From: Asanoa iriomotensis | GTDB lineage: Bacteria; Actinomycetota; Actinomycetes; Mycobacteriales; Micromonosporaceae | Direction: 5' to 3' | NCBI RefSeq assembly: GCF_016862515.1 | Contig: NZ_BONC01000001.1 | Location: forward strand, 62,001-126,000 | Length of the DNA: 64,000 nucleotides | Shown: one piece after another, positions 19,754-57,972 of the stretch | Layout: the number at the start of each line of letters is the position of its first letter | How positions within the stretch are numbered: the stretch's first letter is position 1 | Translations under genes and position numbers: made by a program | The notes under the pieces: model-generated | What the model saw: only the letters and a program-made list of their open reading frames with translations | The model's database searches: none | What the model was told of the DNA's origin: nothing

Positions 19754-20695
19754 GTGATGTCGGCGCTCTCCCCGCAACGGGCACTACGGCGGATCGTCAC
19801 CGCGGCGGTGGTGTTCCTCGCGCTCGTCGTGACCGTCGCCCTCGCCTTCCACCGGTCCGTGCCCAACGTGGCCGGTTTCGGCAGCGTGCTCGACACCGCC
19901 GCACCCCTGCTGCTGCTCGCCGTGCCCGTGCTGATCCTCGGCGCCGTGCTGGCCCGCACCAAGGTCGCGGCCGTCGCGGCGCTCGTGCCCCTGCTCGTCT
20001 GGGGCCTGATGTTCGGCCGCGCCTGGCTGCCCAAGAGCGCCGACCAGGGCGCCACCCAGTTGCGGGTGGCCAGCCAGAACGTGAACGCCGCCAACCCCGA
20101 CCCGGCCGCGACAGCCGACGCCGTGGTGGCCACCGACGCCGACGTGGTCGCGTTGGTCGAGGTGGCCGATGGCCTGCGCGAGCCGACCGCCGACGCGATG
20201 GCCGCGCACTACGCGCACCACGTGCGGGTCTCCACGGTCGAGCTGTGGAGCCGCTACCCGATCCTCGACTACGCGCCGGTCGACACGGCCCTGGGCTGGG
20301 AGCGCGCCCTGCGCGCCGTCGTCGACACACCCGAGGGCGAGCTCACGGTGTACGCCGTGCACCTGGGCTCGGCCCGCCCCGGCGTCACCGCGACCCGGGA
20401 CCGGTCCCTGCGCGCGCTGGCCGACGCGGTGGCCGCCGACCCGGCCCGGCGGCTCGTGGTGCTGGGCGACCTGAACACGGCGATCACCGACCGGGTGATG
20501 GCCCCGCTGCGCGACCTCGTCCGTGACGCGCAGGCCGACGCCGGGCGCGGCCCGGGCGCCACCTGGCCCGCCTCGCTCCCGGTGATCCGGCCCGACCAGA
20601 TCTTCTACCGCGGCCTCACCGCGACGATGTCCACTGTGGTGCGCACGCCGGAAACCGATCACCGGGCCGTGGTGGCAGGCTTCCATTTCGGCTGA
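19754..20695 (+). CDS. Membrane endonuclease/exonuclease/phosphatase-family protein (VanJ-like)
   Basis: This 313-residue protein has three N-terminal membrane helices (residues about 12-95) followed by an EEP-fold domain facing outside. Catalytic landmarks are RVASQNVNAANPD (Asn), VVALVEVAD (metal Glu), VYAVHLGSARPG (His), VVLGDLNTA (Asp/Asn) and TPETDHRAV (final Asp-His). This architecture is that of VanJ, linked to teicoplanin resistance and envelope lipid metabolism in Streptomyces; the role here is inferred. GTG 19754 (six bases after TAGCGT at 19742) or ATG 19757 can start it. Confidence 0.8.
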   Translation: MMSALSPQRALRRIVTAAVVFLALVVTVALAFHRSVPNVAGFGSVLDTAAPLLLLAVPVLILGAVLARTKVAAVAALVPLLVWGLMFGRAWLPKSADQGATQLRVASQNVNAANPDPAATADAVVATDADVVALVEVADGLREPTADAMAAHYAHHVRVSTVELWSRYPILDYAPVDTALGWERALRAVVDTPEGELTVYAVHLGSARPGVTATRDRSLRALADAVAADPARRLVVLGDLNTAITDRVMAPLRDLVRDAQADAGRGPGATWPASLPVIRPDQIFYRGLTATMSTVVRTPETDHRAVVAGFHFG

Positions 20696-48811: not shown

Positions 48812-50002
48812 GTGAGCGACTTCCTTGAACCCTCCGACGACTACTCCGACGCCCACCTCGTCGTCGACTGGCCCGACACCGATCTCGTGCGGCAGAAGCT
48901 GAGCCTGCCCGCGTTGCAGTCCCTGGTCCGGGTCGACGGTGTCGACGAGGCCCAGGAGCTCCTGGGCCTCAGCCGGTTCCGGCTGAGCAGCGTCGACGAG
49001 TCGCTGCCCGACAACGTGGTGATCGAGCAGGTCCTCGACCGGCTGCGGCAGGCGTTCCGCGACGACGGCGCCCGGGTGCCCGAGATCGACGGCAACGCGA
49101 CGATGACCGGCGTCGTCGGCTATCCGCACACCAAGCCGATGGCGTTCATGTCCGATCTCGACAAGGCGTCGGCGGCGGACTTCGGGACGATTCCGGCCGG
49201 CGGTGCCGGCGCCGGCGTGCGGGTGGCGATGCTCGACACGACACTGATCCGGCACCCGCAGCTCGACGGCCACGCGTCCGCGGCGACGGAGAAAGCGCCG
49301 GTGACCGGCAAGGCGTGGGCCGGGCACGGCACGTTCGTCGCCGGGCTGATCGCCAAGCGGGCTCCGGGTTGCGAGATCGTCGTGCACGGCGTGCTCAGCG
49401 AGGAGGGCCGCGCCACCGTCTGGGACACCGCGGTCGCGCTGGCGGAGCTCGCCGACGAGCGGGTGCCGTACGACGTGATCAACCTGTCCCTCGGTTGCCG
49501 GCGCGGCGGTCCCGACGGCCCGCTGGCCCTGCGCCGCGCCGTCGAGCGCCACGCCGGGCGCAGCCTGCTGGTCGCGGCCGCGGGCAACCATGGCATGAGC
49601 GAGCAGGCCGAGCTGCCGGCGTGGCCCGCGGCGTTCCCCGGCGTCGTGGCGGTCGGTGCGACCTACCTGGACGACAGCGGTGACCGCAAGGTCGCCGAGA
49701 TCACCCCGCAGCTCCCGTGGGTCGACTGTGTCGCGCTCGGCGGCGACGTCGTCTCGACCTACGTCGACGGTGAGTTCGAGGTGACCCACTTCGTCGAGGG
49801 CGCCCTCGTCACGGAGTTCATCGACTTCGACCAGTACGCGCGGTGGACCGGCACCTCGTTCGCGGCCGCGCAGGTCACCGGCGCGGTCGCGGCGGCGCGC
49901 ACGGCGGGCGAGACCGCGGCCGAGGCGTTCGACCGGCTGCTCGGCGCGACCGACTCCGGCATCAGCACACCGCCTTGGCTGGTGGCCGGCCATGCGGGAT
50001 GA
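48812..50002 (+). CDS. Cytosolic S8 (subtilisin-family) serine peptidase
   Basis: This 396-residue peptidase has the triad Asp142 (VAMLDTTLI), His172 (AGHGTFVAGLI), Ser349 (GTSFAAAQVTGAVA) and the oxyanion Asn259 (VAAAGNHG). No signal peptide or membrane segment is present. The first 130 residues are acidic and helical and may be a propeptide or docking region. GTG 48812 has GGAGGAA at ideal distance. It overlaps the sigma gene by 11 bases. Together with the divergent CHAT protease this suggests a two-protease signalling module inside the cell. Confidence 0.88.
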   Translation: MSDFLEPSDDYSDAHLVVDWPDTDLVRQKLSLPALQSLVRVDGVDEAQELLGLSRFRLSSVDESLPDNVVIEQVLDRLRQAFRDDGARVPEIDGNATMTGVVGYPHTKPMAFMSDLDKASAADFGTIPAGGAGAGVRVAMLDTTLIRHPQLDGHASAATEKAPVTGKAWAGHGTFVAGLIAKRAPGCEIVVHGVLSEEGRATVWDTAVALAELADERVPYDVINLSLGCRRGGPDGPLALRRAVERHAGRSLLVAAAGNHGMSEQAELPAWPAAFPGVVAVGATYLDDSGDRKVAEITPQLPWVDCVALGGDVVSTYVDGEFEVTHFVEGALVTEFIDFDQYARWTGTSFAAAQVTGAVAAARTAGETAAEAFDRLLGATDSGISTPPWLVAGHAG

Positions 50003-50564: not shown

Positions 50565-50983
50565 CGGACGAAGAGATCATCACGGCTCTGGCGGAGGCCC
50601 GGCGGGAGGCGGCGGAGGTGCCCGACCGGATCCGGGAGATCGGCCGGTCCGCCTTCGCCTGGCGGACCGTCGACGCGGAGCTGGCCGCCCTGTCCACCGA
50701 GTCGTTGACGGGAGCGCGGGCCGAGCAGGCCCCGGTGCGGGCGCTGACCTTCGCGGCCCGCGACCTGACCATCGAGGTCGAGGTCACCGACGACGCGCTG
50801 CACGGTCAGGTGGTGCCCCCGCGCACCGGCGAGATCGAGCTGCGCGACCGCACCGGTGTGGTCGCGGCCGCGCAGGTCGACGAGGTCGGCTGGTTCGTGC
50901 TGGGCCCGGTGCCGCGCGGCATGTTCCGGCTGCACCTGCGCGCCGGCGACACCGTCGTCGTCACCGAGTGGGTGACGATCTAG
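50561..50983 (+). CDS. Small partner protein of the CHAT/sigma module, helical head and beta-sandwich tail
   Basis: This 140-residue protein matches no named family known to me. Residues 1-45 form helices rich in Glu/Arg/Ala (ITALAEARREAAEVPDRI, then IGRSAFAWRTVDAELAAL). Residues 60-140 are beta strands like a carboxypeptidase-regulatory or transthyretin fold (LTIEVEVTDDALHGQVVPP, MFRLHLRAGDTVVVTEW). It is coupled by ATGA to the sigma gene. The short helical head could bind the sigma factor and be a protease target. The end overlaps the convergent lysA-like gene by four bases. Confidence 0.7.
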   Translation: MTDEEIITALAEARREAAEVPDRIREIGRSAFAWRTVDAELAALSTESLTGARAEQAPVRALTFAARDLTIEVEVTDDALHGQVVPPRTGEIELRDRTGVVAAAQVDEVGWFVLGPVPRGMFRLHLRAGDTVVVTEWVTI

Positions 50984-52335
50984 GCCAGATCCACGTCCCG
51001 GCACAGCACGTCGTCGATCGTCTCGCGGCGGACGACGACCCGGGCTGCGCCGTCGCGCACCGCGATCAGCGGCGGCCGGCCGACGAGGTTGTAGTTGGAC
51101 GCCAGCGGCAGGTGGTACGCGCCCGCACCGGGCGCGGCCAGCAGGTCGCCGGGACGCAGGTCGGCCGGGAGCGGCACCGAACGGGCGAGCACGTCGCCGG
51201 CCTCGTCATGACGACCGACGATCGTGCTCGACACCGCGGGACCGGTGCCGGCCCGGCCGAGCAGGACGGCCGTGTACCGGGCGCCGTAGAGGGCCGGCCG
51301 GGGGTTGTCGCTCAGCCCTCCGTCGATGGCGACCAGCTGTGTGCCCTCCGGCTCGCGGCGAACCGCCACGACCCGGTACAGGGCCACACCGGCCCTGGCG
51401 ACGACGGCCCGACCCGGCGTCACCACCAGCTCCGGTTCCGGCACGCCCTGGCGTTCGCAGGCCAGACCCAGGACCGCCCGGGCCCGACCTGCGAACGCGG
51501 CGACGGCGAAGGGGGATTCACCGTCCACGGCGGGGGCGGCGTGACCCCCGCCGATGTTGATCTCCCGAACCAGGATTCCGCTGGTACGGGCGAGCTGGCC
51601 GGCCACCGCGACCAGCCGCTGGATCGCCCGCTCGTAGCCGCCGAACCGGCTGATCTGCGAGCCGACGTAACAGTCGAGGCCGACCAGCTCGAGCTTGGGC
51701 TGGGCGACGATCCGCTTGACCAGGTCGTCGAACGCCGTGCTGGGCGCGGCGACGCCGAACCGGTCGCAGTCGTTCGGCGCGGGGAGCCCGGCGACGCCGT
51801 CGAACAGCGCGTCGTGCGAGGGCAGCACCCGGATCAGCACCTTCTGCTTCCGGGTCGCGATCGCGGCGAGCCGGGTCACCTCCGAGGCCGACTCGATGAC
51901 CACCCGGCCGACCCCGTAGTCAAGAGCGGCCTGCAGGTCGGCGGGCGTCTTCGCGTCGCCGTGCAGCACGATCCGCTCGGCCGGGAACCCCACCGCAGCG
52001 GCGACGGAGAGCTGCCCCTCGGAGTAGACGCTCAGGCCCAGCCCCTCCTCCTTGACCCAGCGGAGGACGGCCCGGCTGGTCAGCGCCTTGGCCGCGTAGA
52101 CGACGTGGCCGTTGCCGAAGGCCGAGCCGTACTCCCGGCAGTGGCTCCTGACCTCGTCCTCGTCGATGACGTACGCGGGTGTTCCGTGCTGCTCGGCCAG
52201 CGTGGCGAGGTCGACCCCGCCGACACTGATCGCGCCGTGCCCGGTGTGGCGGGTCGACGCCGGCCAGATCTCAGCGCACAGCCGCTGCGGCGGCAGCGAG
52301 GTGCGCAGTGACGGGATGAGATCCGAGAGGCTCAT
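50980..52335 (-). CDS. Diaminopimelate decarboxylase-like PLP enzyme with altered active-site motif
   Basis: This is a 451-residue fold-type III PLP enzyme. The PLP lysine is in HVVYAAKALTS, and phosphate-binding GGGHA and the His of LVLHGDAK-type loops are present. The LysA signature H-C-E-S-G-D reads HDEAGDVL, so the substrate-contacting Cys is replaced by Asp, and EPGR reads TPGR. The enzyme may act on a substrate other than diaminopimelate. The first 35 residues are extra. ATG 52335 lies inside the preceding Lrp-like gene (65-base overlap), implying coupled translation. Confidence 0.75.
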   Translation of the reverse strand: MSLSDLIPSLRTSLPPQRLCAEIWPASTRHTGHGAISVGGVDLATLAEQHGTPAYVIDEDEVRSHCREYGSAFGNGHVVYAAKALTSRAVLRWVKEEGLGLSVYSEGQLSVAAAVGFPAERIVLHGDAKTPADLQAALDYGVGRVVIESASEVTRLAAIATRKQKVLIRVLPSHDALFDGVAGLPAPNDCDRFGVAAPSTAFDDLVKRIVAQPKLELVGLDCYVGSQISRFGGYERAIQRLVAVAGQLARTSGILVREINIGGGHAAPAVDGESPFAVAAFAGRARAVLGLACERQGVPEPELVVTPGRAVVARAGVALYRVVAVRREPEGTQLVAIDGGLSDNPRPALYGARYTAVLLGRAGTGPAVSSTIVGRHDEAGDVLARSVPLPADLRPGDLLAAPGAGAYHLPLASNYNLVGRPPLIAVRDGAARVVVRRETIDDVLCRDVDLA

Positions 52336-52603
52336 TGGTGCTCCTGGTGAGGTGCGGGTCGAACGGCCGCAGGACGAGGTGGGTCAGGGTGCGCCCGGCC
52401 CCGGCGTGGTGCCGGAGCCCGCGGACGAGACCGTCGAGCGCCGCCATGTCCTGGCACCGCACCCGCACGACGGCATCGGAATCGGCGGCGACCCACCAGG
52501 CGTCGACCACCTCCGGCCGGCGTGCCAGGTGGGCCTCCAGGCAGGGCGCGTCCTGGGTCCGGTTGAGCCAGACCAGGATGACCGCTTCGACCTCTCCGCT
52601 CAT
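52271..52603 (-). CDS. Lrp/AsnC ligand-binding (RAM) domain protein without DNA-binding part
   Basis: This 110-residue protein is a single alpha/beta RAM domain (VEAVILVWLNRTQDA, VVDAWWVAADSDAVVRVR, then the TLTHLVLRPFDP strand). No helix-turn-helix precedes it, so it may act as a stand-alone amino-acid sensor or bind a full Lrp protein. ATG 52603 begins the conserved strand. The end overlaps the lysA-like gene by 65 bases; the C-terminal Ala-rich tail lies in that overlap. A role in sensing the product or substrate of the decarboxylase is plausible. Confidence 0.7.
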   Translation of the reverse strand: MSGEVEAVILVWLNRTQDAPCLEAHLARRPEVVDAWWVAADSDAVVRVRCQDMAALDGLVRGLRHHAGAGRTLTHLVLRPFDPHLTRSTNEPLGSHPVTAHLAAAAAAVR

Positions 52604-52694
52604 GACACCGATCGTGCGACCCCCCGCCCGCCGCGCGCACCTTCCTTGACGCCTTCGCTACGCCCAGGCCCCCGCATCTGACTCGTCCTTGACA

Positions 52695-52726
52695 CCACCG
52701 GGCCGAGGACGCCCTCGGCCCGGTGG
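52695..52726. terminator. Perfect hairpin downstream of the small Trp-rich peptide gene
   Basis: A 14-bp perfect stem (CCACCGGGCCGAGG / CCTCGGCCCGGTGG) with loop ACGC begins seven bases after the peptide stop. On the plus strand it is followed by TTTT, on the minus strand by no T-tract. It may end the peptide message or act as an attenuator for the genes beyond. Confidence 0.75.
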
Positions 52727-52733
52727 ATCGTTT

Positions 52734-52790
52734 TCACCAGTCCCAGTTGAACCAGTCCCAGTTGAACCAGTCCCACGTCGTGTTGCCCAT
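52734..52790 (-). CDS. 18-residue Trp/Asp repeat peptide
   Basis: The short frame encodes MGNTTWDWFNWDWFNWDW, i.e. two and a half copies of W-D-W-F-N, from the 15-base tandem repeat TGGGACTGGTTCAAC. ATG 52790 is preceded by GGGGG, which lies in the loop of a 6-bp hairpin (TCGAAC/GTTCGA, 52792-52807) directly before the start. A 14-bp hairpin follows the stop. The gene lies between a response regulator gene and an Lrp-like/lysA-like pair, all on the minus strand. It could be a bioactive or modified peptide, or an attenuator leader; I do not recognise it. Confidence 0.55.
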   Translation of the reverse strand: MGNTTWDWFNWDWFNWDW

Positions 52791-52868
52791 GTCGAACCCC
52801 CGTTCGATCGGATGTCGGCTTGTGCCGAGAGCCGAGTATCGGCCGCGCCGGCGGCGGTTGTCCGCATG

Positions 52869-52888
52869 CGTTGCGAGTTCCCGCAACG
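52869..52888 (-). terminator. Short hairpin after the response regulator gene
   Basis: CGTTGCG and CGCAACG form a 7-bp stem with a 6-base loop, two bases beyond the response regulator stop. It separates that gene from the peptide gene. Confidence 0.5.
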
Positions 52889-52890
52889 GC

Positions 52891-53553
52891 TCAGCCGCGC
52901 GCACCCGGCACGACCAGACCCGTCTCGTACGCCGCGACCACCGCCTGCGTGCGGTCGCGTAACCCCAGCTTGGTCAGCATCCGGCTCACGTGGGTCTTGA
53001 CCGTCTCCTCCGAGACCACCAGGCGGGCCGCGATCTCCGGGTTCGACAGCCCCTCGGCCACCAGCCGCAGCACCTGCGTCTCGCGTGGCGTCAGCGCCGA
53101 CAACGCGACCGGCGCCGGTGCCTGCGGGCGGTGCTGCAGCGCGAACTGCGCGATCAGCCGCCGCGTCACCGTCGGTGCCAGCAGGGCCTCGCCCGCCGCG
53201 ATCACGCGTACCGCGTCGAACAGGGCCTCCGCGCGGACGTCCTTGAGCAGGAAGCCGCTCGCACCCGCGCGGATCGCGTCGTAGACGTACTCGTCCAGGT
53301 CGAACGTCGTCAGGATCAGCACCCGCGGACGCGCCGCCGTCGCGGTCAGCCGGCGGGTCGCTTCGATGCCGTCGACGCCGGGCATCCGGATGTCCATCAG
53401 CACCACGTCCGGCCGCGTCCGCCCGCAGACCTCCACCGCCGTCGCGCCGTCGGCCGCGGTGCCCACCACGGAGATGTCCGGCTGCGTGGCGAGCAGCCCC
53501 GCGAACCCGCCGCGGACCACCTCGTGGTCGTCGGCCACCACCACCCGGATCAT
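52891..53553 (-). CDS. NarL/LuxR-family response regulator
   Basis: This 220-residue protein has a receiver domain with VVVADDHEVVRGG (acidic pair), phosphoacceptor Asp in VVLMDIRMPGVDG, the Thr in ILTTFDLDEYVY and Lys in FLLKDVRAE. It is followed by a LuxR helix-turn-helix (LTPRETQVLRLVAEGLSNPEIAARL, then VKTHVSRMLTKLGLRDR). ATG 53553 overlaps the kinase stop by ATGA. It is divergent from an ABC exporter that it probably controls. Confidence 0.92.
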   Translation of the reverse strand: MIRVVVADDHEVVRGGFAGLLATQPDISVVGTAADGATAVEVCGRTRPDVVLMDIRMPGVDGIEATRRLTATAARPRVLILTTFDLDEYVYDAIRAGASGFLLKDVRAEALFDAVRVIAAGEALLAPTVTRRLIAQFALQHRPQAPAPVALSALTPRETQVLRLVAEGLSNPEIAARLVVSEETVKTHVSRMLTKLGLRDRTQAVVAAYETGLVVPGARG

Positions 53554-54668
53554 CCGTCCTCCGAAACCGGTGCGGGCAGGGTGGCCTCGACGACGAACCC
53601 GCCGGCCGCGCCGGCCACCCCGGTGCGCAACCGCCCGCCGACCGCCGCCGCCCGCTCCCGCATGCCGCTCAAGCCATGGCCCCCGGCGTCGAGCGGACCG
53701 GCGGGTCCGGGGCCGTTGTCGCGGATCCGCACGCACACGCCCTCCGGGGTATAGGTCACCGACACGTCGACCGCGGCGCCGGGCGCGTGCCGGCGGGCGT
53801 TGGTCAGGGCTTCCTGGACGATGCGGTACGCGGCCAGCTCCACCCCCGGGTCCAGCGGCACCGGCGGCCCGCGCAGGATCAGCCGCGTCCCGGCGCCCGA
53901 CGCGTCCCGCGCCTCGTCCAGCAGTGCCGCCAGCTCCCGCAGGCCCGGCTGCGGCGCCCGCTCGGCGACGGCCGGCGCGTCCGAGCGCAGCACGCCCAGC
54001 AGCCGCCGCATCTCGGTCAGTGCGGCCCGGGCCGTGCCGCCGATCGCCGCGAACCGTTCCGCGCCCGCCGGTGGGAGGGCGGGCGTCGTGAACCGCGCGT
54101 TCTCCGCCTGCACCGAGATCATCGAGATGTGGTGCGCCACCACGTCGTGCAGCTCCCTGGCGATCCGTGCCCGTTCCCCACGCGCCGTGTGCTCGACCAG
54201 CGTCCCCGCGAACGCGGACCGGGCCGCGGAGTGCGCCGCGTCGGCGCTGCCGACCCGACCGGCGAGACCGGCGAGCGCGCAGAACGGGACCAGACCGGCC
54301 AGCAGCACACCGAGCGGGTCGAAGAAGGCGAGCACGAGGTACGGCAGGCCCAACGGCACCGCGACCGCCAGCGCGCCGGACCGCCCTACCAGGTAGGCCG
54401 CGGCGAGCTGGGCCAGCACACCGGCGACGGTCCAGAGGCCGAACCCGGCCAGCGAGACCACCACGGCGGCGGTCACCACCACCGCGACCGCGGTCGGGCG
54501 GCGCGCGGCCAACGCCAACGGACCCGTCGACGCCAGCGCCAGGCACCCGACCAGCACCAGGAACGGGCCGCCGGTCACGTCCGAGGCCACGTACCGGGCC
54601 AACGCCTCGACGACGGCGGCCACCGCCAGCACGGCGGGGGCCACCCGGCGCGCGGCGGTTCCCTTCAC
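53550..54668 (-). CDS. NarL-type sensor histidine kinase
   Basis: This 372-residue protein has an N-terminal membrane region of about five helices (residues 10-140). The HisKA_3 phosphoacceptor is His174 in RIARELHDVVAHHIS. The ATPase domain shows RIVQEALTNARRHAPG, RIRDNGPGP and GHGLSGMRERAAAVGG. No large extracellular sensor is present, so it likely senses the membrane or the adjacent transporter. GTG 54668 starts it; a -10-like CAGAAT lies six bases before. It phosphorylates the response regulator encoded next. Confidence 0.9.
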   Translation of the reverse strand: MKGTAARRVAPAVLAVAAVVEALARYVASDVTGGPFLVLVGCLALASTGPLALAARRPTAVAVVVTAAVVVSLAGFGLWTVAGVLAQLAAAYLVGRSGALAVAVPLGLPYLVLAFFDPLGVLLAGLVPFCALAGLAGRVGSADAAHSAARSAFAGTLVEHTARGERARIARELHDVVAHHISMISVQAENARFTTPALPPAGAERFAAIGGTARAALTEMRRLLGVLRSDAPAVAERAPQPGLRELAALLDEARDASGAGTRLILRGPPVPLDPGVELAAYRIVQEALTNARRHAPGAAVDVSVTYTPEGVCVRIRDNGPGPAGPLDAGGHGLSGMRERAAAVGGRLRTGVAGAAGGFVVEATLPAPVSEDG

Positions 54669-54779
54669 GCTGCCATTCTGACCGCCGGCCGCGCACCGGT
54701 CGTCCCTCGTGCCAGGGACTCCGAAGATGGCTCCCACGCGGGACGACCACGGCCGCCGCGGTTCGTAGCGTGATCTGTC

Positions 54780-55703
54780 ATGGAAGCCACCATCGAGGTC
54801 TCCGACCTGCGCAAGACCTACGGGTCGACGGTCGCGCTGGACGGGATGACGTTCACCGTCACGCCCGGCCGGGTCACCGCGTTCGTCGGGCCCAACGGCG
54901 CCGGCAAGTCCACGACCATGCGCGTCGTGCTCGGTCTCGACCGGGTCGACGCGGGCACCGCGCTGATCGGCGGCCGCCCGTACCGCAGCCTGCGCACCCC
55001 GCTGCGGCACGTCGGCGCGCTGCTCGACGCGTCCGCCCTCCACCCGGCCCGCAGCGGCCGCGACCACCTGCTCTGGCAGGCACACTCCCAGGGCCTCGGC
55101 GCGCCCCGGGTCGACGAGGTGCTCCGGCTCACCGGCCTCGCCGACGTCGGCCGGCGCCGGGCCGGCGGCTACTCGCTCGGCATGCGGCAGCGCCTCGGCG
55201 TCGCGGGGGCGCTGCTCGGCGACCCGCCGGTGCTGATGCTCGACGAGCCGTTCAACGGGCTCGACCCGGAGGGGATCCGCTGGATGCGCGGCTTCCTGCG
55301 GGCGCTCGCCGCCGAGGGCCGGGCCGTGCTGGTCTCCAGCCACCTGATGAGCGAGCTCCAGGACACCGCGGGCCACCTCGTGGTCGTCGGCCGCGGCAAG
55401 GTCGTCGCCGACACCAGCGTCGCGGACCTGATCGCCGCCGCCTCCGCCGACCGGGTCACCCTGCGCACCATCGCCCGCACCGAGGCGATGACCGCCCTGG
55501 CCGAGCGCGGCGCCACGGTCGCGGTCACGGACCGGGACACGCTGACGGTCGACGGCCTGCCCGCCGACCAGGTGGTGACCGTGCTCAGCCAGGCGAGCGT
55601 CCCGTTCTCCGAGATCTCCGCGCACCGCGCGACGCTCGAGGAGGCCTACATGGAGCTCACCCGCGACGCCGTCGAGTTCCGGGCGACGGAGGTGGCGGGA
55701 TGA
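54780..55703 (+). CDS. ABC exporter ATPase
   Basis: This 307-residue ATPase has Walker A GPNGAGKSTTMRV, the signature YSLGMRQRLGVAGALL, Walker B VLMLDEPFNGLDPEG, the switch His in VSSHLMSEL and a C-terminal extension of about 90 residues typical of antibiotic-type exporters. ATG 54780 is eight bases after TAGCGT (54766-54771), indicating a leaderless promoter. It overlaps the first permease gene by ATGA. It is divergent from the two-component system, 111 bp away. Confidence 0.92.
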   Translation: MEATIEVSDLRKTYGSTVALDGMTFTVTPGRVTAFVGPNGAGKSTTMRVVLGLDRVDAGTALIGGRPYRSLRTPLRHVGALLDASALHPARSGRDHLLWQAHSQGLGAPRVDEVLRLTGLADVGRRRAGGYSLGMRQRLGVAGALLGDPPVLMLDEPFNGLDPEGIRWMRGFLRALAAEGRAVLVSSHLMSELQDTAGHLVVVGRGKVVADTSVADLIAAASADRVTLRTIARTEAMTALAERGATVAVTDRDTLTVDGLPADQVVTVLSQASVPFSEISAHRATLEEAYMELTRDAVEFRATEVAG

Positions 55704-57196
55704 AGGGGCTGCTCCGGGCCGAGTTCACGAAGTTCCGGTCCGTCCGCGGTTGGGTCGTCGGGTGCGGCGTCGCCGTCGTGCTGATGCTGTTCTTCGCGGT
55801 GCTGGCCGGCGCCGGCACGAGCGACCGGGGCGGTGGCCCGCGCGGCGGCGGCGCGCCGCCCAAGGGTCCCGACGGCACGCCGGTCGTCGACGGGTTCACC
55901 TTCGTGCGGCAGCCGCTGCCCGCCGACGGCACGCTCACGGTGCGGGTGGCCGACCTGACCGGCACCGACCTGCCGCCGCCCCGCCCGGGTGACGACGGCG
56001 CGCCGCCGGCTCCGGCCGAGCCGGAGCGGCCTGGGCCGGCCGAGGCCGAGCCATGGGCAAAGGCCGGCCTGATCGTCAAGGCGGGCACGACGCCAGGGTC
56101 GCCCTACGCGGCGGTGATGGTGACGGGCGATCATGGCGTACGCATGCAGCACGACTTCGTCCACGACCTCGCCGGTCCCGCGGACGCCCGCTGGCTGCGG
56201 CTGGAGCGCAAAGGCGGGACGGTCATCGGGTACGCGTCGGCGGACGGCGCTGCCTGGACCAGGATCGGCACGGCCGCGCTGGCGACCGGGGAGGTGGAGG
56301 CCGGGCTGTTCGTCGCCACCCCGCCGCACGAGGAGTACGACCAGTTCCTGGGCGGCACCAGCAGCATCGGCGGCAAGGTGATCGCGACCGGCACGTTCGA
56401 GCACCTCACGGCCACCGGCACGACCGGCGACTGGGAGACCGAGATCGTCGGCGCCGACCCGTCAGCGGGCCGGCCGGACGTCGGCGCGACCCGCACCGGC
56501 GACGGGTTCACCGTGACCGGCACGGGCGACATCGCGCCGGCCGGCGGCGGTGCCGGGCCCAAGCTGGAGCAGACCTTGGTCGGCGGGTTCGCCGCCCTGA
56601 CCGTGCTGGCCGTGCTCGGCGTCCTGTTCGTCACCACCGAGTACCGGCGCGGCCTGGTCCGCACCACGTTCACCGCGACGCCGGGCCGGGCCCGGGTGCT
56701 CGCCGCGAAGGCCGTGGTGATCGGGGCGGTCACGTTCGGCGTGGGCCTGGTGGCGTCGGCGGCGGCGCTGTTGATCGGCGAGGCGGTGCGGGGCGGCGAC
56801 CCTTATCCGGTAGCCGTGTCGACCCAGGTCCGGATCGTGGTCGGCACGGCCGCGCTGCTCGCCGTCGCGGCGGTCTTCGCGGTCGCGATCGGCACGATCC
56901 TGCGGCGCGGTGCGGGCGCGGTGGCGGCGGTCGTCCTGCTGACCACTCTGCCCTACATCCTGTCGGTGGCGGCGGTGCTGCCGGCCGTACCCGCGCAATG
57001 GGTGTTGCGCCTGACCCCGGCGGCGGCGTTCGCCGTCCAGCAGACCGTGCCGGAATGGCCGCAGGTGCACCAGGCGTACACGCCGGCCTTCGGCTTCTTC
57101 CCCCTGCCGCCGTGGGGCGGGTTCGCGGTGCTCTGCGCCTGGACCGCGGCGGCCCTGGCCATCGCCGCCGTGCTGCTGCGCCGCCGGGACGCGTGA
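55700..57196 (+). CDS. ABC-2-type permease with a large extracytoplasmic DUF1349-like insert
   Basis: This 498-residue protein begins with the helix VVGCGVAVVLMLFFAVLAGAG. About 250 residues predicted outside follow, then five helices (from LVGGFAALTVLAVLGVLF). The outer part holds a Pro/Gly-rich stretch and a beta-sandwich like DUF1349/laminin-G (WAKAGLIVKAGT, AAVMVTGDHGVRMQHDF, RIGTAALATGEVEAGLFV). Such domains bind sugars. The insert is unusual for this transporter class and may sense or hold the substrate. Its stop overlaps the next start by TGATG. Confidence 0.82.
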   Translation: MKGLLRAEFTKFRSVRGWVVGCGVAVVLMLFFAVLAGAGTSDRGGGPRGGGAPPKGPDGTPVVDGFTFVRQPLPADGTLTVRVADLTGTDLPPPRPGDDGAPPAPAEPERPGPAEAEPWAKAGLIVKAGTTPGSPYAAVMVTGDHGVRMQHDFVHDLAGPADARWLRLERKGGTVIGYASADGAAWTRIGTAALATGEVEAGLFVATPPHEEYDQFLGGTSSIGGKVIATGTFEHLTATGTTGDWETEIVGADPSAGRPDVGATRTGDGFTVTGTGDIAPAGGGAGPKLEQTLVGGFAALTVLAVLGVLFVTTEYRRGLVRTTFTATPGRARVLAAKAVVIGAVTFGVGLVASAAALLIGEAVRGGDPYPVAVSTQVRIVVGTAALLAVAAVFAVAIGTILRRGAGAVAAVVLLTTLPYILSVAAVLPAVPAQWVLRLTPAAAFAVQQTVPEWPQVHQAYTPAFGFFPLPPWGGFAVLCAWTAAALAIAAVLLRRRDA

Positions 57197-57972
57197 TGGG
57201 CACCGCGTTGCACGCCGAGTGGACGAAGCTGCGCACCGTCGCCGGCCCGTACTGGCTGGTCGCCACGGCGGCGGTGCTGACCGCGGGCCTGAGCGCGGCG
57301 ACGGTGGCCGCGGTGACCTGCGCGGACACCGGGTGTGGGCTGGACGCGCCGCGGATCGCGCTGACCGGCGTGCAGATCGGCCAGGCGGTCGTGGCGGTGC
57401 TCGCGGTCATGGTGGTCGGCGACGAGTACCGGACCGGCATGATCCGCACGACCCTGGCCGCGGTGCCGTCGCGGGTCGCCGTGCTCGCGGCCAAGGGCGT
57501 GGTCGTCGCCGGCGCCACGCTCGCCGCGGCGGTGCCGGGCGTGCTCGGAGCCTGGCTGGCCGGTCGGCTGATCATGCCGGGCCAGGGCTTCACCGCCGCG
57601 CACGGGTACGCGCCGCTGTCGCTGACCGACGGGCCGACCCTGCGGGCGGTGGCCGGGTCGGTGCTCTACCTGACGCTGGTCGCGCTGCTGAGCCTGGGCC
57701 TGGCGGCGGCGGTACGCGACGCCCCGACGGGGGTGGGCGTCGTGCTCGGCGTGCTCTACCTGGCACCGATCCTGGCCGCAGTCGTCTCGGACCCCGACTG
57801 GGAACGCCGCCTGCGGCAGATCACGCCGAGCACCGCCGGGCTGTCGGTCCAGCACACGCTCGACGTGGCGAGCCTGCCGATCGGCCCGTGGCCCGGTCTC
57901 GGGGTGCTGGCCCTGTGGGCGGCGGGTGCACTGCTGCTGGGCGGGCTGCTACTCCGTTTCCGGGACGCGTGA
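57196..57972 (+). CDS. ABC-2-type transporter permease
   Basis: This 258-residue protein has six membrane helices: N-terminal EWTKLRTVAGPYWLVATA, then VVGDEYRTGMIRTTLAAVPSR as the cytoplasmic coupling loop typical of the group. It has no large outer domain. It is the second permease of the exporter and probably forms a heterodimer with the DUF1349-bearing subunit. Its end overlaps the convergent LAxTG protein gene by 24 bases. Confidence 0.88.
   Translation: MGTALHAEWTKLRTVAGPYWLVATAAVLTAGLSAATVAAVTCADTGCGLDAPRIALTGVQIGQAVVAVLAVMVVGDEYRTGMIRTTLAAVPSRVAVLAAKGVVVAGATLAAAVPGVLGAWLAGRLIMPGQGFTAAHGYAPLSLTDGPTLRAVAGSVLYLTLVALLSLGLAAAVRDAPTGVGVVLGVLYLAPILAAVVSDPDWERRLRQITPSTAGLSVQHTLDVASLPIGPWPGLGVLALWAAGALLLGGLLLRFRDA

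Follow-up and report, generated by a model that had tools for sequence, protein, structure and literature searches.

When a short open reading frame rich in tryptophan (Trp) is found ahead of a strong hairpin and of two further genes on the same strand, the question arises whether it encodes a peptide in its own right or is read as the leader of an attenuator. Such a frame lies in Asanoa iriomotensis, within the stretch of 64,000 nucleotides analysed here (the window). An earlier note had left both options side by side, namely a new class of small peptide gene or an attenuator for the Lrp-like and lysA-like genes downstream. The first of these options gained ground, as the same spacer of a related genome (G004) carries a frame coding for MSDRGWNWD, whereas the second did not hold. 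The explanation we prefer, which appears to us quite possible if somewhat short of probable, is a lineage-specific, self-contained micro-gene of 9–18 codons that would be transcribed and translated, and whose peptide would act by itself.

Organization of the locus

The features of the locus are listed below in the order of transcription.

52891–53553, minus strand: LuxR-type response regulator gene, flanking on the upstream side
52835–52864, minus strand: promoter-like pair CGGACA - 18 nt - GATACT, 8/12 consensus positions by eye
52792–52807, minus strand: predicted 6-bp hairpin TCGAAC-GGGG-GTTCGA, with 9% of flank shuffles folding as well
52797–52801, minus strand: ribosome-binding GGGGG
52734–52790, minus strand: Trp-rich frame of 18 codons plus stop, translated as MGNTTWDWFNWDWFNWDW (start ATG 52790–52788; last Trp codon 52739–52737; stop TGA 52736–52734)
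52737–52775, minus strand: tandem repeat in which a 15-nt unit for W-D-W-F-N occurs twice in perfect form and a third time in part
52695–52726, minus strand: 14-bp perfect hairpin with a 4-nt loop, terminator-like, without a U-run on the coding strand
52604–52694, minus strand: Lrp-like gene control block, which contains GTCAAGG twice and is conserved in 6/6 genus genomes
52271–52603, minus strand: flanking gene for an Lrp/AsnC ligand-binding domain (110 aa, Pfam scan)
50980–52335, minus strand: flanking diaminopimelate decarboxylase gene (lysA), 319.6 bits against a cut-off of 297.9

Located at C1:114737-114790 of the genome (8,569,428 bases in 187 contigs), the frame encodes a peptide exactly as earlier written, with Trp at 6/18 residues; G or C occupies the third position in all 18 codons, and in 8/9 codons of the G004 frame. 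The 15-base tandem repeat described before was found as well. Since its W-D-W-F-N copies are perfect, third codon positions included, they probably stem from a recent duplication, and, as judged from the sequence, tandem expansion of the 15-nt unit seems to have given rise to the 18-residue form recently.

The GGGGG ends 6 nt from the start codon. It had been placed entirely within the loop of a 6-bp hairpin; the hairpin is indeed predicted (-7.2 kcal/mol), but only four of the five Gs lie in the loop, with a predicted unpaired probability of 0.94–0.97, the fifth being paired. Taken alone, this Shine-Dalgarno (SD) hairpin is unremarkable, as 176/2000 flank shuffles fold equally well. The 14-bp perfect hairpin expected after the stop is present, begins 7 nt past the stop codon and reaches -32.7 kcal/mol. 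The terminator scan reported it for the plus strand only, where a T-rich tail is found, and detected no U-run after it on the coding (minus) strand; as similar hairpins occur in other family genomes, it probably represents a common G+C-rich terminator type. A stricter promoter scan reported none at the promoter-like pair, which counts against the micro-gene reading.

No DNA-binding domain was matched in the Lrp-like gene (52271–52603), which thus appears as a stand-alone ligand-binding domain gene overlapping the start of the diaminopimelate decarboxylase gene.

Chance expectation

Frames of this type, defined by a length of 6–40 codons, two or more Trp, a Trp share of 20% or above and a Shine-Dalgarno-like site, were counted on both strands of a genome sample of 788,806 bases (9%). 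Eleven were encountered, three of them outside likely genes, and the only one with W-[D/N]-W is the frame discussed here. Dinucleotide shuffling of the 287-nt window spacer produced a Trp-rich frame in 3/3000 cases, but none with W-[D/N]-W (0/3000); for the G004 spacer, short Trp-rich frames with a ribosome-binding site arose in 2/3000 shuffles, again never with W-[D/N]-W (0/3000). The spacers of G001, G002, G003 and G005 yielded 1, 4, 4 and 0 Trp-rich frames per 3000 shuffles, and 0, 0, 1 and 0 with W-[D/N]-W. By our own estimate, which assumes a mean genome size and draws on 16 places outside G000 (the window genome) and G004 in a family-wide pattern search, the chance of such a hit within the five relatives' spacers is about 1e-5. 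The Trp-rich frame is probably not a product of chance, and it is fairly likely to be a gene.

A shorter frame in the sister species

The order of response regulator, spacer and Lrp-like gene is kept in 5/5 relatives compared. The spacer itself, of 287 nt in the window (52604–52890), measures 670 nt in G001, 942 in G002, 2035 in G003, 577 in G004 and 84 in G005, and can be regarded as a variable slot of 84 to 2035 nt that holds differing frames in this genus: G001 has a frame of 122 codons, G002 and G003 have one on the opposite strand that we take to be methyltransferase-like, G003 has one more, and G005 retains the control block alone. This block covers some 85 nt upstream of the start of the Lrp-like gene and, in the window, directly follows the 14-bp hairpin.

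The Trp frame is present in two of the six genus genomes (G000 and G004) and missing from the other four. According to the earlier note, its absence from the corresponding regions of close relatives would speak against it, and here the outcome is divided: four of the five relatives have no frame, and one, G004, has a shorter frame at the same place, as expected of an independent gene. In G004, the frame MSDRGWNWD comes after GAACGGGGGTATCGTCATG, whose window counterpart is GAACGGGGGTTCGACATG. In both genomes, GAACGGGGGT precedes the start, AACTGGGACTG stands at the frame end, where it codes N-W-D followed by W or a stop, and a promoter-like xxGACA - 18 nt - xATACTCGG is found upstream. A hairpin with a GGGG loop is also predicted in both, with stem pairs that partly differ; the G004 version performs no better against shuffles than that of the window (203/2000 fold as well). 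The stretch 3' of the G004 frame also folds strongly.

In a tree built from the response regulator and Lrp-like DNA of six taxa, G000 and G004 are sisters with a support of 0.98; simple sequence identity places G002 and G004 equally near to G000 (88.5% vs 88.2%). Local alignment of the window and G004 regions scores 48, compared with an average of 32 after shuffling (sd 4.9; highest value in 300 shuffles, 51), and the first 150 nt align with a score of 47 to the frameless G002, which counts against the micro-gene reading. Because these alignment scores are weak, the case for homology rests on position, register and shared features instead. Also to be counted against that reading is the divergence of the two peptides, of 18 and 9 residues, few of which can be aligned. 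On an interfacial scale, the 18-residue peptide scores -8.35 kcal/mol and the 9-residue one -0.1 kcal/mol, so that the shorter form has no membrane preference, a further point against the micro-gene reading.

The G004 spacer contains a second short frame, MTLPRVFAPSSLEAPA (L088, after 860), which follows ACGGGGGGTTGACGCC and precedes a strong hairpin.

Searches for relatives

The earlier note had proposed looking for conservation of the repeat in related genomes. A protein search with the 18-mer across 300 family genomes recovered its own copy and, in three other genomes, only weak hits (E 0.6, 1.31 and 1.5) located in open frames of 159–171 codons. No clear relative beyond G000 and G004 was found in 300 and 354 family genomes or in the species collection. 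In the latter, W-[ND]-W-F-[ND]-W-[ND]-W matched 16 stretches, 15 from Pelagibacteraceae and one from a Gracilibacteria MAG, which were judged unrelated by eye; in 14/16, the stop-to-stop frame has 24 residues. Viral contigs gave 0 hits with a stricter Trp pattern. The motif W-G-W-F-D-W-D-W of G001 and G002 was also set aside, since by eye it lies inside a longer glycosidase-like frame.

Three family patterns combining a ribosome-binding site with a W-[ND]-W frame matched 18/354, 16/354 and 30/200 genomes, with 19, 18 and 32 places listed against 12, 10 and 17 in the reversed control, so that most of these hits are likely noise. The short in-frame examples include MAWNWS at the frame start (five genomes), 20-residue PWNW frames (two), MKNWDWA (two), NWDW in a 13-residue frame (one), MRGWNWLDGWL and MEPHGWDWLLG. 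For a W-x-Y-ending pattern applied across the genus, the hits in G000 numbered 52, compared with 43 in the control, among listed matches that reach into G003 and leave out G004 and G005. At the DNA level, a search with the 201 bases around the frame, in which two candidates were scored per genome, matched 354/354 genomes at E <=10, which is uninformative. Outside the window genome, the strongest hits (E 5e-6 and 6e-6) correspond only to the 14-bp hairpin, weaker ones include the G+C-rich leader as well, and the orthologous G004 region was not recovered. No earlier report of such a peptide was found among the titles and abstracts listed in literature searches, which is no proof of absence.

Two of the short Trp frames deserve a description of their own. 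The same genome carries MADKARGWDWSK at about 20211–20249 of G000:C9 (L138 1712–1750, plus strand), with a strong Shine-Dalgarno site, a G+C-rich foldable leader and a next gene on the opposite strand; its region matches no Rfam family at the gathering score, and no like frame was found where the flanking DNA matched in G001 and G004. The MKNWDWA frame (L114 1510–1533 and L115 1511–1534, in G106 and G067) has GGGG before its start and a CCCGC/GCGGG inverted repeat after its stop, and is followed by a gene for a membrane protein. Both genomes belong to another genus, and as they are very similar throughout the neighbouring DNA, the conservation of MKNWDWA says little.

Attenuation, peptide modification and RNA-level function

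On the minus strand, the Trp-rich frame, the hairpin, the Lrp-like gene and lysA follow one another in the order that a Trp-sensing attenuator leader of these two genes would require, and a short Trp-rich frame with a strong hairpin is likewise what the trp operon attenuators of Corynebacterium and Streptomyces display. Actinobacterial trp attenuators carry Trp codons in runs of two or three, together with an antiterminator and with terminators that end in a poly-U tract (PMC1262725). At this locus, by contrast, none of the six Trp codons is adjacent to another, and the terminator scan detected a T-rich tail on the opposite strand only, with no U-run on the coding strand. There is no competing antiterminator either: with the transcript start taken as 52828, the best fold without the 14-bp hairpin is 21.4 kcal/mol worse. 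Moreover, the control block of the Lrp-like gene lies past the hairpin and is conserved throughout the six genomes, including the four from which the leader is missing. The earlier remark that the downstream genes do not obviously need Trp control agrees with their identification as an Lrp-type ligand-binding domain and a diaminopimelate decarboxylase; lysA is not a Trp gene, and no gene for Trp biosynthesis, Trp transport or a Trp tRNA synthetase lies beyond. Attenuation is accordingly rejected on structure, position and distribution, and we consider it very improbable. The locus also shows that a hairpin behind a Trp-rich frame does not suffice to make an attenuator.

The density of Trp and the repeated five-residue units also bring to mind a RiPP precursor with W-x-W cores, whose enzyme would be encoded elsewhere in the genome. 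Very short precursors are known, and those of the biarylitides (PMC13417212) are tiny, aromatic-rich frames missed by annotation, just as here; they encode five residues, however, compared with 9–18 in the present case. Atropopeptide precursors share a Trp-containing core, but the leader available here is too short for the KSLK-type recognition described for them (PMC11450843), and no such motif is found. The 57 genes of the 64-kb window, predicted by a codon-usage script and all scanned with Pfam, include no match to the P450, radical SAM, YcaO or lanthipeptide enzyme families. Modification of this kind is hence hardly probable. A subtilase at 48812–50002, tried as a PatA-type maturation protease, scored 23.3 bits against a cut-off of 421 and was given no weight.

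Function might instead reside in the RNA, as a small RNA or untranslated element with the repeated ACTGG or the G-rich hairpin loop as its working part, the frame being incidental or only an aid to stability. The GGGG-loop hairpin predicted in both species in spite of partly different stem pairs, the shared AACTGGGACTG and the better folding of the whole stretch compared with shuffles (z -2.99) are consistent with this proposal. Against it, no Rfam family matches at the gathering score, 9–10% of flank shuffles equal the SD hairpins, and frame, start and codon bias all fit translation, so that we regard it as improbable. Two further ideas considered were a type I toxin-antitoxin peptide, a kind of system in which an antisense RNA blocks the translation of a small hydrophobic toxin, and a C-rich sRNA of the type known as 6C RNA. 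Among the titles listed in a literature search for the latter, none dealt with it.

Micro-gene or neutral proto-gene

The strongest rival to the micro-gene reading is that of a neutral proto-gene, which would have arisen once in the ancestor of the two species as a short frame, been lengthened later by replication slippage, and perhaps be translated without any selected function. Its limitation to 2/6 genomes, the want of a clear relative in the 300 and 354 family genomes, the fast change of length and sequence, and the perfect repeat copies, by which the present form of the frame would be young, are all compatible with such an origin. What argues the other way is that the ribosome-binding sequence, the promoter-like spacing and the N-W-D end have been kept between the two species, in both of which hairpins are found 3' of the frame. 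On balance, we see the neutral origin as unlikely, although it has to be taken seriously, and a selected function of the peptide is a guess.

Under the preferred micro-gene reading, the weak promoter-like pair would drive a short leader whose hairpin loop presents the ribosome-binding Gs, and the frame of 9 to 18 codons would then be translated and followed by the terminator-like hairpin. The micro-gene would occupy, in G000 and G004 of the six genomes, the variable slot between the response regulator and the Lrp-like/lysA pair, and its Trp richness would have grown recently by tandem duplication of the 15-nt unit from a shorter W-N-W-D core. The peptide itself might then be active, perhaps on the surface of the membrane, an option restricted to the 18-residue form, or through a partner that it binds via N-W-D. 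A close parallel is provided by the lineage-specific small intergenic frames known from bacterial ribosome profiling, which, in the portion of that work drawn on here, are equally tiny, intergenic and confined to few species; the present frame, read from sequence, differs in its unusual Trp content and its tandem repeat.

If translated, the peptide, of which Trp makes up one third, would be expensive to produce; no modifying enzyme was matched and no Trp gene adjoins it. Together with its growth by repeats between sister species, this would open both the origin and the early function of a micro-gene to direct test. More speculatively, and with little probability in our view, the locus may exemplify a new actinobacterial kind of micro-gene, made up of stand-alone promoter-to-terminator units of about 150 nt encoding N/G-W-D/N-W peptides of 7 to 18 residues. 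That this kind evolves by tandem repeat of a Trp unit, and that MADKARGWDWSK and MKNWDWA belong to it, is just as doubtful.

Further upstream, at 53550–57972, a histidine kinase and a response regulator are encoded divergently from an ABC-2 type transporter, whose ATPase is matched best, though below the cut-offs, by NCBIfam models for lantibiotic protection and drug export.
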